Part shown: piece after piece, positions 23,891 to 35,700 of the stretch | How positions within the stretch are numbered: position 1 is the stretch's first letter | How the letters are laid out: the number at the start of each line of letters is the position of its first letter | From: Acidobacteriota bacterium | GTDB taxonomy: Bacteria; Acidobacteriota; Terriglobia; Bryobacterales; Bryobacteraceae | NCBI GenBank assembly: GCA_016870915.1 | Contig: VFZY01000043.1 | Coordinates: 1-35,700 of the forward strand | Length of the DNA stretch: 35,700 nucleotides | Direction: 5' to 3' | The notes under the pieces: generated by a model | Databases searched by the model: none | What the model was told of the DNA's origin: nothing | The model's input: the letters and a program-made list of their open reading frames with translations, nothing else | Position numbers and translations under genes: made by a program

Positions 23891-26437
23891 ATGATGCGGA
23901 TCGGAACTTTGGTGACGGGTCTGCCCGTGTTGCTGAGTGTGCCCGTGGCGGCGGCACAGGCTCCGGATTTTGCCCGCGAGATTGCACCTATCTTGGCGCG
24001 CAACTGTTCGGGGTGTCACGGCGCGGCGCAGCAGATGAGCGGTTTGCGGCTGGATGACGGCGTGGCGGCGTTGCGCGGCGGTTATTCGGGGGCGGTGATT
24101 GTGCCGGGGAATGCCAGCGGTTCAGCTCTGATGGCCCGGGTGACGTCGCAGAAGGAGAACTTCCGGATGCCGCCGGCGGGACCGCGGCTGGATGAGGCGG
24201 CGGTCGCCAAGTTGCGGGCGTGGATCGACGCGGGGGCGGTGTGGCCGGCTTCGGCGGCGAAGGCGGGGGGCGCGAAGGGATCGAACCATTGGGCCTTTCA
24301 ACCGGTGCGAAAGCCGGCGGTGCCGGCGATGGGCGCCGAGTGGGGCCGCAATCCGATCGACGCATTTGTTCTGGCGAAGCTGGCTGAGGCCGGGCTGAAG
24401 CCTTCGGGCGAGGCTCCGCGAGCGGTGCAGTTGCGCCGCGTGACGCTGGATCTGACGGGTCTTCCGCCGACACCGGAGGAGACCGCGGCGTTTCTTGCCG
24501 ACAGTTCGCCGGGCGCGTATCAGCGGGTGGTGGACCGGCTGTTGCGATCGCCTCATTACGGCGAACGGTGGGCGCGGCATTGGCTGGATCTGGCTCGGTA
24601 TGCCGACTCCGATGGGTTTGAGAAAGACCAGCCGCGTCCCTGGGCCTGGCGCTATCGCCAGTGGCTGATTGAGGCGCTCAATCGCGGCCAGAGCTTTGAC
24701 CAGTTCACCATTGATCAGATTGCGGGGGATCTGCTGCCGAACGCGACGCTCGATCAGCGGATCGCCACGGGGTTCCATCGCAACACGCTGCTCAATCGCG
24801 AGGCCGGGGTGGCGCGGGCAGAGGACCGTTTCGAGATTCTGGTGAACCGCGCGAACACCATTGCGACGACGTGGCTGGGGTTGACGGCGGGTTGCGCGCA
24901 GTGCCACGACCACAAGTACGACCCGATCACGCAGCGCGACTACTACTCGCTGATGGCGGTGATGAATCGGACCATCGACGATGAGATTGATGCGCCGGTG
25001 GAGGGCGAGTTTGGCCCGTGGCTGCGAACTCAGGCCGATTTTCTGGCCAAGCGGCGGGAGATCCTGAACAAGCACCGCATTCCGGAACTGGAAGCCGAGT
25101 GGGAAGTGAAGATGCGGCAAGCGATTCTCAACCCGGGTAAGGATGTGGAGTGGGATTTCGCGGTGACGGCGTGCCGGGCGATGCTGGACAACGCGGATAA
25201 GCTGCTGCTGATGGATCGCGACCGGAGGCCGGAGCGGCTGGCGCGGCGGATCACGGCGCAGTTCCTGAGTTCCGCGGGGCCCGATATTCCGCGGGACAAG
25301 GAGAAGCAGGACCGCGTGAAGAAGGCTCGCGGGGAGTTGACGGAGCTGGAGGGGGCGTTCCCGCGGCTTTCACAGGCGATGGTGGTGCAGGACGACCCGA
25401 CGGTGCCGCCCGCCTACATCGCCATTCGCGGCGATTACAAGCGTCAGGGGCTGACGGTGGAACCTCTGCCGCCCGCGTTCCTGCCCGCGATGAAGACCAC
25501 GGGCGAACCCGCGCGGCTGGCCTTTGCGCGATGGCTTGTGGCGCGCGAGAATCCGCTGACGGCACGCGTCATCATGAATCGCGTCTGGCAGGAGATGTTC
25601 GGGCGCGGGCTGGTGCGCACTTCGGAGGATTTCGGAACACAGGGTGAACGCCCGTCGCATCCGGAACTGCTGGATTGGCTGGCGGCTGAGTTCATGGATG
25701 GCGGCTGGTCCTTGAAAGAGATGCAGAAGCTGATGGTGATGTCGGCGGCATACCGGCAGTCATCCGCGGCGCGGCCGGATGCGGCGGCGAAGGATGCCGA
25801 CAATGCGCTGCTGGCGCGGCAATCGCGGCTGCGGCTTGCGGCGGAAAACATCCGGGATTCGGCGTTGGCGGCAAGCGGCTTGCTGTCGCGCACGGTGGGT
25901 GGGCGCAGCATTTATCCGCCCCAGCCGGCGGGGGTGGCGGAGCTTGGCTACGGGTCGCGGAAGTGGGTGGAGTCGGCGGGGGCGGAACGGTATCGCAGGG
26001 GACTCTACGTGCACTTCCAGCGGACCACGCCGCACCCTCAGTTGATGAACTTCGACGCGCCGGATTCGACATTGGCGTGCAGCCGGCGGCGCAATTCGAA
26101 CACGCCGCTGCAGGCGTTGAACCTGCTGAACGATCCGGTGTTCTTTGAAGCCGCGCAGGCGTTGGCTGTGCGTGTGCTGCGGGAATCGCCGGCGGGTTTC
26201 GCGCCGCGCCTGAACCGGGCTTTTGCCCTGACGGTGGCGCGGCCCCCATCGGCGCGTGAGAGCGAGCGCATGGCTCGGCTTTTCGATCAGCAACTGGGCA
26301 TTCTGGCGGGCGACGCCGGGGCGGTTCCGCAACTGATGCCGGTGGAAGTGGAAGGTGTCGCGCGCGTGGAGGCCGCCGCCTGGGCCGCGCTGTGCCGCGT
26401 GCTGCTCAATCTGGATGAGTTCATCACCCGGGAGTAG
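23891..26437 (+). CDS. Secreted cytochrome-domain DUF1549/DUF1553 (PSD1-type) protein
   Basis: The 848-residue protein has a signal peptide (residues 1-22) and an N-terminal planctomycete-type cytochrome c domain with the haem site C39-S-G-C42-H43 and likely distal Met in [13 protein letters not shown]1549 region follows ([47 protein letters not shown]) with a second CxxCH at C335-A-Q-C338-H339 ([11 protein letters not shown]). The C-terminal DUF1553 region includes [22 protein letters not shown] and [15 protein letters not shown]. It is abundant in Planctomycetes, Verrucomicrobia and Solibacter-type Acidobacteria, and its function is unproven. The partner DUF1501 gene starts 3 nt after its stop, an arrangement typical for the pair. 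The start may be ATG 23894. Confidence 0.92.
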
Positions 26438-26440
26438 ATC

Positions 26441-27853
26441 ATGAACGTTCGCCAATATCTTGAACTCACCAACCGGCGCCGGTTTCTGGGGCGCGTGGCC
26501 GGCGGCATTGGCGCCATGGCGCTGGGCGATCTGCTGGCCGCGGACACGAATCCTCTGGCGGCGCGCAAGGGTCATTTCACTGGGAAAGCCAAGAGCGTGA
26601 TCTTCATGTTCATGGAGGGCGGGCCCAGCCAGATGGATCTGTTCGACCCCAAGCCGGGCCTGCAGAAATGGCATGGCCAGGCGCTGCCCGATTCCTTCAC
26701 GCGCGATCTGAAGTTGGCGTTCATCAAGCCCAGTGCAGCGGTGCTGGCCAGCCCTCGCGTGTTCAAGCCGCATGGGCAATCGGGCACGCAGTTTTCAGAT
26801 TTCATTCCACACACGGCCAGTTGCGCCGACGATATCTGCCTGGTGCGCTCGATGAGCACGGAGGCGTTCAATCACCACCCCGGGCAGTTGCTGCTGTTCA
26901 CCGGGTCGACGCAGATCGGGCGGCCCACGATGGGCGCCTGGACTGTGTATGGGCTGGGCAGCGAATCGAGCAATCTGCCGGGCTTTGCGGTGCTCACTTC
27001 GGGCGCGGGCACCAGCGGCGGCGCGACGAATTTTTCCAGCGGCTTTCTGCCTTCGACGTTCCAGGGCACGCCGCTGCGCGGCTCCGGGGATCCCATTTTG
27101 TATCTGGCCAATCCGCCCGGGGTTTCGGGACTGACGCAGCGCGCGGGCCTGGACGCGCTGCGGGATCTGAATGAGGAGCATCATGCGGCGGTGGGCGACA
27201 TGGAGATCGCCTCGCGGATGGCGTCCTATGAACTGGCTTACCGGATGCAGAGCGCGGGGCCTGAACTGGCCGATTTTTCCGGCGAGTCCCGCGAGACGCT
27301 GGACCTGTATGGCGTGAACGACGAGACCTCGCGGCCGTTCGCCACCAACTGTCTGCTAGCGCGCAGGATGGTGGAGCGCGGCGTGCGGTTCATTCTTCTG
27401 ATGCATGCAAGCTGGGATGACCACGTGCAGTTGAACCGCAAGCTGAAGCGCAACTGCGACATCACGGACCGGCCGACGGCCGCGCTGCTGAAGGATCTGA
27501 AACGGCGCGGCCTGCTGGATTCAACGCTCGTGGTGTGGGGCGGCGAGTTCGGGCGCACGCCGATGCAGGAAGTGCGCAACACGCAGGAGGCGGACAACGC
27601 CGGGCGCGACCATCATCCGAACGCATACTCGATGTGGCTGGCCGGCGGCGGCATCAAGGGCGGGCAGGTGATCGGCAAGACGGACGATCTGGGGTTCAAC
27701 GTGGTGGAGGATCCGATGACCGTGCATGATCTGCAGGCCACCATCCTCAATCAACTGGGCTTTGACCACACGCGGCTCACCTATCGCCACATGGGCCGCG
27801 ATTTCCGGCTGACGGACGTGCACGGCGAAGTGGTGAGGAAGATGATCGCGTAG
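26441..27853 (+). CDS. Tat-exported DUF1501 (sulfatase-like) protein
   Basis: The 470-residue protein begins with a Tat-type signal (NRRRFLGRVAGGIGAMALGDLL). The mature part carries the DUF1501 signatures: KSVIFMFMEGGPSQMDLFDPKP, SMSTEAFNHHPGQLLLFTGS, TLVVWGGEFGRTP, NAGRDHHPNAYSMWLAGGGIKGGQVIGKTD and a C-terminal MTVHDLQATILNQLGFDHTRLTY. The fold is alkaline-phosphatase/sulfatase-like, and the His/Asp-rich motifs suggest metal binding, but no reaction is established. GGGAG near 26430 serves as ribosome-binding site. It is coupled to the DUF1549/DUF1553 gene (3-nt gap), so both probably act together in the periplasm. Confidence 0.93.
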   Translation: MNVRQYLELTNRRRFLGRVAGGIGAMALGDLLAADTNPLAARKGHFTGKAKSVIFMFMEGGPSQMDLFDPKPGLQKWHGQALPDSFTRDLKLAFIKPSAAVLASPRVFKPHGQSGTQFSDFIPHTASCADDICLVRSMSTEAFNHHPGQLLLFTGSTQIGRPTMGAWTVYGLGSESSNLPGFAVLTSGAGTSGGATNFSSGFLPSTFQGTPLRGSGDPILYLANPPGVSGLTQRAGLDALRDLNEEHHAAVGDMEIASRMASYELAYRMQSAGPELADFSGESRETLDLYGVNDETSRPFATNCLLARRMVERGVRFILLMHASWDDHVQLNRKLKRNCDITDRPTAALLKDLKRRGLLDSTLVVWGGEFGRTPMQEVRNTQEADNAGRDHHPNAYSMWLAGGGIKGGQVIGKTDDLGFNVVEDPMTVHDLQATILNQLGFDHTRLTYRHMGRDFRLTDVHGEVVRKMIA

Positions 27854-27877: not shown

Positions 27878-29209
27878 TCACCATTCGGCGACGCTGCCGT
27901 CTTCATGGAACACGCGCGCCATGGGGCGGGTTCCGCCGAAGGGATACTTCTTCAGCGCGGCTTCGGTGAGTTCGAAGCCGAGCCCGGGTTTGTCCGGCAG
28001 CGGGAAGCGGCCGTTCACCATGCGCATGGCCGGGAAGCCCAGCCATTCGGCCCACACCTTCTCTTTCATGTCCGGCTCGACGCCGCTGCAGATCTCCTGC
28101 ACGATGAAGTTCGGGGTGGCGGCGTCGACATGCACCGTGGCGATGCCACCGATGGGCCCTTCGCAGGCGTGCGGCGCCATGGAGATGCCGGAGGCTTCGG
28201 CCAGCGCGCCGGTCTTCCAGAGGGCGGTGATGCCGCCGACGTGGTTGATGTCGGTCTGGATGATGTCCACCACGCCCATTTCGACAAGTTCGCGGCAGGA
28301 GTAAGAGGCGATGAGCCGTTCTCCGGTGGCGATGGGAGTGGTGGACCGCCGAGCGATGCGCGCCATGGCCTTGACGTTTTCCGGCGGGCAGGGCTCCTCG
28401 ATGAACAGCAGGCGCAGGGGCTCCACTTCCTTCACCAGGATGGCGGCCACGGCGGGGCTGGTCTTGGCGTGGAAGTCCACGCCGATATCGATGTCGGGTC
28501 CAAGGCCCTCGCGCAGCATCTGCATCCATTCGACGGCGCGTTTGATCTTGGCGCTGGTTTCGATCCACTCGTAGTAGCCGGGGATGCCGCTCTTGAAGCA
28601 GGTGATGCCGTTGGCGCGCGCGATGGCGGCGGCGCGCCGCAGTTCCTCGCGATTGCCGCCGCGGATGTGATAGTAGCCGCGAACGCCGCGCTCATCGAAC
28701 GGTCCGCCCAGCAGCTTGTAGACCGGCATGCCCAGCATCTTGCCGCGGATGTCCCACAGCGCCTGATCGATGCCGGCGATGGCGGAGCCGATCACGGGCC
28801 CGGCGCGATAGAAGCTGTGGACGTACATCGATTGCCAGTGATGTTCCACCAGCATCGGGTCCGCGCCGATGAGGAATTCCTTGAAGTCGTCAATGCAGGC
28901 CATCACCGCGGCGGCCTTGCCTTCGAGCGTCGCTTCGCCCCATCCCACGACGCCTTCGCGCGTTTCGATTTTCACGAAGACGTACGGCCGGTCGGAATCG
29001 GGCGTCAGCGAGACGCCGAATACCTTCATCGCGGTAATGCGGTTCTTCGAACCAACGTTCTCAAACGCCCGCGCGCCGACGGGTCCCGATTGCGCCGCCT
29101 GCAAGGCCGGGGCGCAACCGCAATCCACGGGAGCCGCCCCGCGAGCGGCAGCCGCCGCCCCCGCCCCCGTCCCCGCCATTCCAGCCAGAAAATGACGCCG
29201 TCTCATCAC
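27878..29209 (-). CDS. Tat-exported enolase-superfamily sugar-acid dehydratase (galactonate-dehydratase type)
   Basis: The 443-residue protein starts with a Tat signal (MMRRRHFLAGMAGTGAGAAA) and a short Cys-containing linker (VDCGCAP). The enolase-superfamily capping and barrel domains follow. Metal ligands are present as Asp245 (with His247 in VDFHAK), Glu271 (FIEEP) and Glu297 (ATGER). The catalytic His347 lies in MAPHACEGPIGG. The DxH / EEP / TGE / PH set matches the D-galactonate dehydratase subgroup, which removes water from aldonic acids to give 2-keto-3-deoxy acids. The substrate is not proven. Export is unusual for such an enzyme but frequent, in my recall, in Solibacter-type genomes. 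It overlaps the degenerate paralogue by 4 bp (ATGA). Confidence 0.87.
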   Translation of the reverse strand: MMRRRHFLAGMAGTGAGAAAAARGAAPVDCGCAPALQAAQSGPVGARAFENVGSKNRITAMKVFGVSLTPDSDRPYVFVKIETREGVVGWGEATLEGKAAAVMACIDDFKEFLIGADPMLVEHHWQSMYVHSFYRAGPVIGSAIAGIDQALWDIRGKMLGMPVYKLLGGPFDERGVRGYYHIRGGNREELRRAAAIARANGITCFKSGIPGYYEWIETSAKIKRAVEWMQMLREGLGPDIDIGVDFHAKTSPAVAAILVKEVEPLRLLFIEEPCPPENVKAMARIARRSTTPIATGERLIASYSCRELVEMGVVDIIQTDINHVGGITALWKTGALAEASGISMAPHACEGPIGGIATVHVDAATPNFIVQEICSGVEPDMKEKVWAEWLGFPAMRMVNGRFPLPDKPGLGFELTEAALKKYPFGGTRPMARVFHEDGSVAEW

Positions 29210-30351
29210 GCACTCTCCCTGTACTTCGTCAACACGCTTTCGTCCACCCGCACGCCAAGACCCGGGCCCGTGGGCAGCGCGAGGAAGCCGCCGGTCACCT
29301 GTTCGATGGCGCCGGCCAGGGCGTTGCGCATGGCGCGCGCTTCGCCGGATGCCGCCGGAACTTCCTGAATGAAAAAGTTGGGAAGAGCCGCGGCCAGTTG
29401 AAGGGCGGCGGCGGTGGCGATGGGGCCGCCGTCGAGCCGGGGCGCCACGGCCACGTAGTAGGTTTCAGCCATGGCCGCCACGCGGCGGGCGCGGGCGATG
29501 CTCATCAGCGAAAGGTCGGGCCGCAGCAGGTCGGCGCACTCTTCACGGAGCAGGTTCTGGAACATGGCCGCATCGGCGATGCCGGCGCCGAAGCCGAGCG
29601 GCGTGACCGATTCCTGGGCGATTTTCCGCACCGCGCCCAGGTTCGCCACGGCGCATGGTTCGTTGAGCCACAGCGGATGGAACCGTTCCACGGCGGCGGC
29701 CACCGCGCTGGCGTCACCGGTGGTCATGCCGCCGGCGCCATCCAGCACCAGGTCGCCTGTGTCGCCGGCTGCCTCGCGAAGCGCGGCCATGCGCTCTTCG
29801 ACGGCGGTGATGAAATCCTTGCCATGGTTCGGCGAGAACGTCTTGATGCTTGGAAGCGGAACGGAAAACGCCTGGTATCCCCCCGCGCGAGCTTCAGCCA
29901 GACGCTCCGCCAGTTCGCGGTTCGTGCCGCCGGTGAGGGTGGCCAGGGCTCGCGCCTTGAAGCGCGTGGGCCCGCCCAGCACCTGATACACCGGCGCCTT
30001 GGCCGCCTTGCCGCACAGGTCGAGCAGCGCCATCACCACGCCGCACTGCGCCGTTGGGGTTCCGGCGAGACGGCGTTCCAGCACCTCGTACGCCGTGGCA
30101 GGCTGGCCCACCACGATGCCGCGCGTCTGATCCAACTGAGCCGCCGTGAGGCCGGAGCATTCGCCAAATCCTGTTGCGCCGCCCTGCGCCTTGACGCGAA
30201 GCACGGTGTAGCGGCGGCCTGTGCCTGGCTCCCGCAGCGGGTACGCGTCGATCGATGTAACGGTCAAGCCGCCTCCCGGGCTCGCGGTTTGCATCGCGGC
30301 CGGAGCCAGCGCGGTGAGCCGCGCCCGTCTCGCTATTGTCAGGTTCGCCAT
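29206..30351 (-). CDS. Degenerate enolase-superfamily protein (probable pseudoenzyme)
   Basis: The 381-residue protein keeps the enolase-superfamily layout (TGFGECSGL near 60-68, PVYQVLGGP at 120-128, FFIQEVPA near the end) but loses most of the active site. The first metal Asp is kept (Asp204 in VLDGAGG). The second ligand position is Asn230 (LNEP), the third has Ala255 (GFGAG in place of ATGE), and the catalytic His is Arg305 (APRLDGG). No KxK-type lysine pair is seen in FSVPLPS. It is therefore probably not a normal dehydratase or racemase. The first 25 residues (ARRARLTALAPAAMQ) could be a decayed Tat signal; Met20 is an alternative start. It is the first gene of the two-gene operon; a TATACT box lies 10 nt upstream. 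Confidence 0.8.
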   Translation of the reverse strand: MANLTIARRARLTALAPAAMQTASPGGGLTVTSIDAYPLREPGTGRRYTVLRVKAQGGATGFGECSGLTAAQLDQTRGIVVGQPATAYEVLERRLAGTPTAQCGVVMALLDLCGKAAKAPVYQVLGGPTRFKARALATLTGGTNRELAERLAEARAGGYQAFSVPLPSIKTFSPNHGKDFITAVEERMAALREAAGDTGDLVLDGAGGMTTGDASAVAAAVERFHPLWLNEPCAVANLGAVRKIAQESVTPLGFGAGIADAAMFQNLLREECADLLRPDLSLMSIARARRVAAMAETYYVAVAPRLDGGPIATAAALQLAAALPNFFIQEVPAASGEARAMRNALAGAIEQVTGGFLALPTGPGLGVRVDESVLTKYRESA

Positions 30352-35300: not shown

Positions 35301-35700
35301 CCCACATTTCCGTTTTGAGCCGCGCGTGCGAATCTCCTGGATGCTCGTCCGCATCAATATCGATAGGGGTTTGAAGGCAGCGAAGACCCCTGCGGAGGAC
35401 AGCACCCAATGGGTGACAAACAAAACCAGCCCTTTCAGCTCTCGTTCAACGGCCTTCTCAAGATCGACTTCCAGGGATCGCGCGTTACTTCCGATGGTGG
35501 TCTGATCCTGGTGCGTGAGTTGGATGAACGGCTGGGCTTCGGTGCTCTCATTGCCCAACACCTGACTGACTCACGGCGCGGCAAGAATACCCAGCTTCCG
35601 CTGGCGGACCTACTGCGCCAGTCCGTCTACAGCCGGATTGCCGGCTACGAGGATGTCAACGATGCCGAGCGGCTCTCGCAGGATCCAACCTTCCGGCTGA
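35301..35700 (+). mobile_element. IS1380-type insertion sequence, right copy (partial)
   Basis: The element begins at 35301 (CCCACATTTCCGTTTTGAG...), set by the point where identity with the left copy begins and the photolyase-type frame ends. It has a 108-bp leader before the transposase and runs out of the window. The far end, inverted repeat and target duplication are not visible. Its first 126 bp are identical to the left copy, so the two are recent relatives, or the two edges share one assembled repeat. Confidence 0.85.
35409..35700 (+). CDS. IS1380 family transposase, N-terminal part
   Basis: The 97 visible codons begin MGDKQNQPFQLSFNGLLKID. They continue with RVTSDGGLILVRELDERLG (35490 onward), HLTDSRRGKN and LLRQSVYSRIAGYEDVNDAERLSQDP, the N-terminal signatures of IS1380-type DDE transposases, which move the element by cut-and-paste or copy. 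A GGAG sequence about 10 nt upstream may serve as ribosome-binding site. The catalytic DDE region is outside the window, so it cannot be said whether the protein is intact. Confidence 0.9.
   Translation, partial: MGDKQNQPFQLSFNGLLKIDFQGSRVTSDGGLILVRELDERLGFGALIAQHLTDSRRGKNTQLPLADLLRQSVYSRIAGYEDVNDAERLSQDPTFRL

Follow-up and report, generated by a model that had tools for sequence, protein, structure and literature searches.

A degenerate enolase-superfamily protein encoded beside an active-looking sugar-acid dehydratase in Acidobacteria: a probable non-catalytic subunit

Background

Why would a bacterium make a protein that has the fold of an enzyme and lacks most of its catalytic residues, from a gene that overlaps the gene of an active-looking paralogue? 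The question is raised by two genes, here called A and B, in a stretch of 35,700 nucleotides (the window), which is contig C43 in a draft genome of 6.6 Mb. The relatives with which they were compared are Bryobacteraceae and other Acidobacteria. The enolase superfamily, to which both products belong, is the textbook case of a single active site put to use in many different reactions, and as a rule its members are studied as homo-oligomers in which every subunit is active.

Results

Two overlapping genes on the minus strand. Gene A (29206..30351, 381 amino acids) encodes an enolase-superfamily pseudoenzyme of the MR subgroup, recognized by Pfam, by its AF2 model and by homologues in about 90 related loci at 40-56% identity. 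Gene B (27878..29209, 443 amino acids) lies directly downstream. It begins with GTG, its product has a twin-arginine N-terminus, and its match to NF010624, its similarity to 3rr1 and its invariant catalytic residues point to a galactonate-dehydratase-like acid-sugar dehydratase. Both genes are on the minus strand, which an earlier, sequence-only reading of this DNA had not specified. That reading described an overlap of 4 bp, and this is what is seen if B starts with GTG: the stop of A and the start of B share GTGA (29206..29209, minus strand). With the following codon, an ATG (MRRRHF), as the start of B, the overlap shrinks to 1 bp (TGATG). The same reading spoke of a fusion, which is not the case; A and B are separate genes that only overlap. 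The sequence GGGAG is found just 5' of the B start. Codon-position G+C in gene A (0.72/0.55/0.82) fits a coding frame. The antisense frame of A on the plus strand is also open throughout (452 codons), which is an effect of G+C content, so that in DNA this rich in G+C an open frame alone proves nothing. A PSD1/PSCyt and DUF1501 gene pair (23891-27853) is convergent to A and B and is not a recurrent neighbour of theirs.

Fold. The two proteins are 28% identical over 358 amino acids (BLASTP), and Pfam places both among MR_MLE proteins. In A, MR_MLE_C (PF13378, 3e-40) and MR_MLE_N (PF02746, 1e-7) both score above their cut-offs, and the protein has the MR_MLE fold of the superfamily, an N-terminal capping domain followed by a modified TIM barrel. 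The AF2 model of A (pLDDT 93.6, pTM 0.89) matches 3t4w, 3rcy and 3rr1 at Z scores of 42-43, with 3t4w the best at 43.3. The model of B has a pLDDT of 81.5, and nothing is drawn from the gap between the two values, as the alignments differ in depth and diversity. The galactonate dehydratase model NF010624 gives B 361 bits, above the curated cut-off of 311, and gives A 156 bits, half of that cut-off, which leaves A outside the family. The closest solved chain to B is 3rr1 (5e-78). Three segments of B are absent from A: 5 amino acids after the GxGE motif and about 9 around YVHSFYRAG, both in the N-terminal capping half, and the C-terminal tail. Judging by the model, A is a protein whose chemistry is lost and whose fold is kept.

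Catalytic positions. BLASTP, phmmer against PDB (including the alignment with 3rcy) and MAFFT agree on the correspondence of sites between A and B, which is D204/D245, A206/H247, N230/E271, A256/E297 and R305/H347, with B numbered from its GTG. The first metal ligand is kept in A as Asp204 (29740..29742, minus strand, as are all positions that follow), although it is lost in about one quarter of A homologues. The second has become Asn230 (29662..29664), where nearly all A homologues have Asp. The third is Ala256 (29584..29586), a position occupied by Arg in 68 of 92 homologues, and the catalytic His is replaced by Arg305 (29437..29439). All three alignment methods bear out the earlier statement that Asn230 and Arg305 stand in for a ligand and the His while Asp204 remains; its Ala255 has to be corrected to Ala256. 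One loss that it did not name is that of the DxH histidine, which aligns with Ala206 (29734..29736). Hence A does not present an acidic Mg2+ ligand on each of three successive barrel strands (it has D204, N230 and A256). None of the alternative alignments (BLASTP, phmmer, MAFFT) restores a Glu or His at these sites. Glu231 was considered as a ligand and rejected, being the second Glu of the EEP motif. A His one residue past the base site occurs in most A homologues; in the window it is Leu306, so it does not rescue this protein either.

In B, on the other hand, D245, H247, E271, E297, D320 and H347 are invariant in the alignment and form the complete DxH...E...E...D...H set. The expectation that B would have all metal ligands and the catalytic His holds for the whole family: DHEEH is present in 88 of 88 complete B sequences, as against a full catalytic set in 0 of 92 A homologues. 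This contrast, as it appears in the alignments, is far beyond chance. Other enolase-family proteins of the same genome retain the three acidic ligands in 30 of the 32 cases examined, so that the degeneration is specific to A.

A as a family. We searched 200 genomes of the window's family and found A, at roughly 40-56% identity, in 80 of them; ordinary enolases follow only after a distinct drop, at about 35%. The sites are degenerate as a class, and not a single one of the 92 homologues has its ligands restored. Site 1 is Asp in 67 of 92 (D, N, S, A, E and Q all occur), site 2 is Asp nearly everywhere and Asn in the A of the window only, and the base site is mostly Phe, Tyr, Arg or His, with Gly seen as well. 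R277, E296 and Y299 are invariant. In a tree of MR-subgroup paralogues A forms one clade (support 100), located beside B in the dehydratase-like part. Two further matches in the genome collection (L020 and L021, 27-28%) were considered as relatives beyond the phylum and set aside; they have ordinary EEP, GER and PH motifs.

Co-occurrence with B. Gene B is present in 76 of the 200 family genomes and gene A in 80, with both in 76, meaning that all 76 genomes with B carry A. Wherever the upstream sequence of B can be read, A lies directly 5' of it, so the constant neighbourhood that had been proposed is real. Among the four genomes with A only, two have a partial B at a contig edge, one has a frameshifted B beside A, and in the fourth just the start of B (MKRRQLL, overlapping the A stop) precedes the end of the contig. 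The only real exception is genome G126, in which an intact B is found 3' of a barrel-only A (L151, G126:C339) that has no N-terminal capping domain and comes right after a transporter gene. Association with the active paralogue is thus obligate in these genomes, apart from this one with a truncated A. Outside the window's family, A again precedes B in two families of the same class and, elsewhere in the phylum, in one genome of a further family. Of 87 pairs, 78 have overlapping frames, and the commonest overlap is exactly 4 bp. A co-occurrence p-value is not to be taken at face value, given linked genes and related genomes; the argument is the consistency across several families. No third constant operon member was found among the loci compared. 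A TonB-receptor-like protein (20 loci) and a DUF1080-like protein (16 loci), both read from the sequences, are the neighbours that we noted, and neither is constant.

A few observations on related loci may be recorded here. The genome has 42 matches to MR_MLE_C, 41 of them above the family cut-off, and hence a large repertoire of sugar-acid dehydratases. It also has a second A and B pair (L175 and L176, at C233:139-1262 and C230:1-1483). The A of this pair is intact and 44% identical to the first, and its B is interrupted by a repeat near the start and frameshifted near C230:655. The same repeat of 126-147 bp is also found at the two ends of the window, at 1-126 and at 35301-35447, and is probably a mobile element that breaks the assembly. 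In a distant family of the phylum, one genome (G386, L150) has an A that is 53-54% and a B that is 79% identical to those of the window, the result of either horizontal transfer or a misbinned contig.

Selection. In 22 close pairs, dN/dS for A is 0.025-0.239 (median 0.096), far below 1, and for B 0.015-0.129 (median 0.042). A is relaxed relative to B, yet far from neutral. Mean pairwise protein distance is 0.53 for A and 0.26 for B, which makes A about twice as fast. Conserved loss of catalytic residues is thus combined with purifying selection, as would be expected of a pseudoenzyme kept beside an active paralogue. The suggestion that A is not a decaying copy stands for the family, on dN/dS and intact frames. 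For the gene in the window, whose best relative, at 56% identity, is too distant for a dN/dS of its own, it rests on the family-invariant residues that are kept and on the confidently predicted fold. At the level of sequence, A is thus a family of pseudoenzymes that arose once, is maintained by purifying selection and is locked to B.

Arginines in the A pocket and at the B N-terminus. Across the 92 A sequences, Arg occurs at site 3 only in 66, at the base site only in 14, at both in 2 and at neither in 10. On the A tree, Arg appeared at the base site on about three occasions, in lineages that have mostly lost the Arg of site 3. The number of independent pairs and events is too small for a sign test on this exchange. 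The pattern suggests that a positive charge may be needed where Mg2+ was.

A twin-arginine RRxF motif is present in 90 of 90 B sequences and something comparable in 1 of 70 A sequences. In 83 of 90 B sequences CxC follows soon after RR, at a distance of 0-30 residues, and A almost never has either motif. The CxC at the B N-terminus (CGCAP, in the window at about 29100-29209) is conserved, and there is no canonical lipobox. Some B sequences are almost devoid of a hydrophobic stretch following RR, which makes Tat export doubtful for them.

Discussion

The explanation that we consider probable on this sequence evidence is that the acid-sugar dehydratase of these soil Acidobacteria is a hetero-oligomer in which A is the obligate non-catalytic subunit and B its partner. 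The two genes overlap and are probably coupled in translation, and their products would assemble into one hetero-oligomer. In this complex B would perform the Mg2+-dependent dehydration, and A would give it structural or allosteric support, perhaps ride along in the Tat export of B, or both. What we infer is the physical complex, which way regulation runs, the export of B and its exact substrate (D-galactonate or another sugar acid). In Tat complexes a partner subunit can travel bound to the chain that bears the signal; by analogy, a weak case can be made that A travels with an exported B. Some points count against the interpretation. At the protein level the rate of change in A is about double that in B, which is more than expected if its whole surface were constrained by B; overlapping genes can encode proteins that do not interact; and G126, with an intact B and an A that has no N-terminal domain, speaks against an obligate partnership.

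A more specific version of the subunit hypothesis, which we put forward as a tentative and on balance doubtful addition, is that Arg has taken the place of the catalytic Mg2+ in A, either at site 3 (GFGR) or, in three lineages including that of the window, at the base site. On this view the bacterial hetero-oligomeric dehydratase would include a subunit devoid of metal, namely A, which may regulate B and bind the sugar acid.

The main rival is that the chemistry of A has not been lost but changed. A could be an enzyme that needs no metal, for example a lactonase, epimerase or isomerase for the sugar acid that B handles, with the conserved Asp, Arg and other residues of the former pocket put to new use and its step coming before or after that of B. 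The Asp at site 2 in nearly all A, the Arg that 82 of 92 have at site 3 or at the base site, and the invariant R277, E296 and Y299 would make sense for such an enzyme, and a two-step pathway would also explain the tight pairing of the genes. However, the positions that could be catalytic vary, both site 1 and the base site accepting five or six different residues; A has no counterpart of the three B segments described above; and the A of the window has lost both the family Asp at site 2 and the family Arg at site 3. We regard changed chemistry as unlikely.

Less likely still is a role of A as a free regulator or sensor, which would bind a sugar acid independently of metal, act elsewhere (e.g. 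in transcription or uptake) and be coupled to B for dosage only. A metal-free pocket with an Arg would suit this role and a shared ligand would account for the pairing, but Pfam finds no DNA-binding or signalling domain in A and no further gene recurs beside the pair. That A is a decaying duplicate, held in place by its upstream position in the operon, is rejected by dN/dS and has hardly any probability left: the faster evolution of A, its truncation in G126 and the frameshifts seen in G052 would agree with it, but the origin is single and ancient, A is spread over several bacterial families with no reversion, frames are intact nearly everywhere and the predicted fold is a confident one.

If A is a subunit of the B enzyme, as we prefer to think, the pair can be compared with partnerships of dead and live paralogues already known elsewhere. 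According to two reports, the trypanosomatid AdoMetDC and prozyme (PMC5201418) and deoxyhypusine synthase and DHSp (PMC3663545) are such pairs, in which a dead paralogue activates a weak or inactive live paralogue as a hetero-oligomer. As described there, they have unrelated folds, are eukaryotic and have been shown biochemically, whereas A and B are bacterial, have overlapping genes and are known from sequence. In the pair KIAA0157-BRCC36 (PMC5106787), a paralogue that has no metal-binding motif pairs with a metal enzyme and promotes its activity; the enzyme is a Zn deubiquitinase and its fold differs from that of A and B. Vertebrate ENO4 (PMC7132099) is an enolase relative with substitutions of critical residues, and its authors suggest a heterodimer with ENO1. 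Unlike A and B, it belongs to the true-enolase subgroup, is eukaryotic, has no gene pair, and its activity is unsettled. Within the superfamily, the galactonate dehydratases of the PRK14017 group (3rr1/3rra) resemble B, which scores above the cut-off and has the catalytic set, and not A, which has no catalytic set and 156 bits where 311 are needed. In the open-access literature (subscription papers were outside the search) we found no description of the A and B pair, or of any dead and live pair among enolase-superfamily sugar-acid dehydratases.

Implications

If the hypothesis is correct, an old, widespread and selected pair of a dead and a live paralogue would add pseudoenzyme partnership to the picture of the enolase superfamily. 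Screens for activity with B alone may then fail, and genes of the A type that are labelled as galactonate dehydratase or mandelate racemase would be misnamed. The pair is small and bacterial and comes in about 90 variants, which makes it a direct testing ground for regulation by pseudoenzymes.
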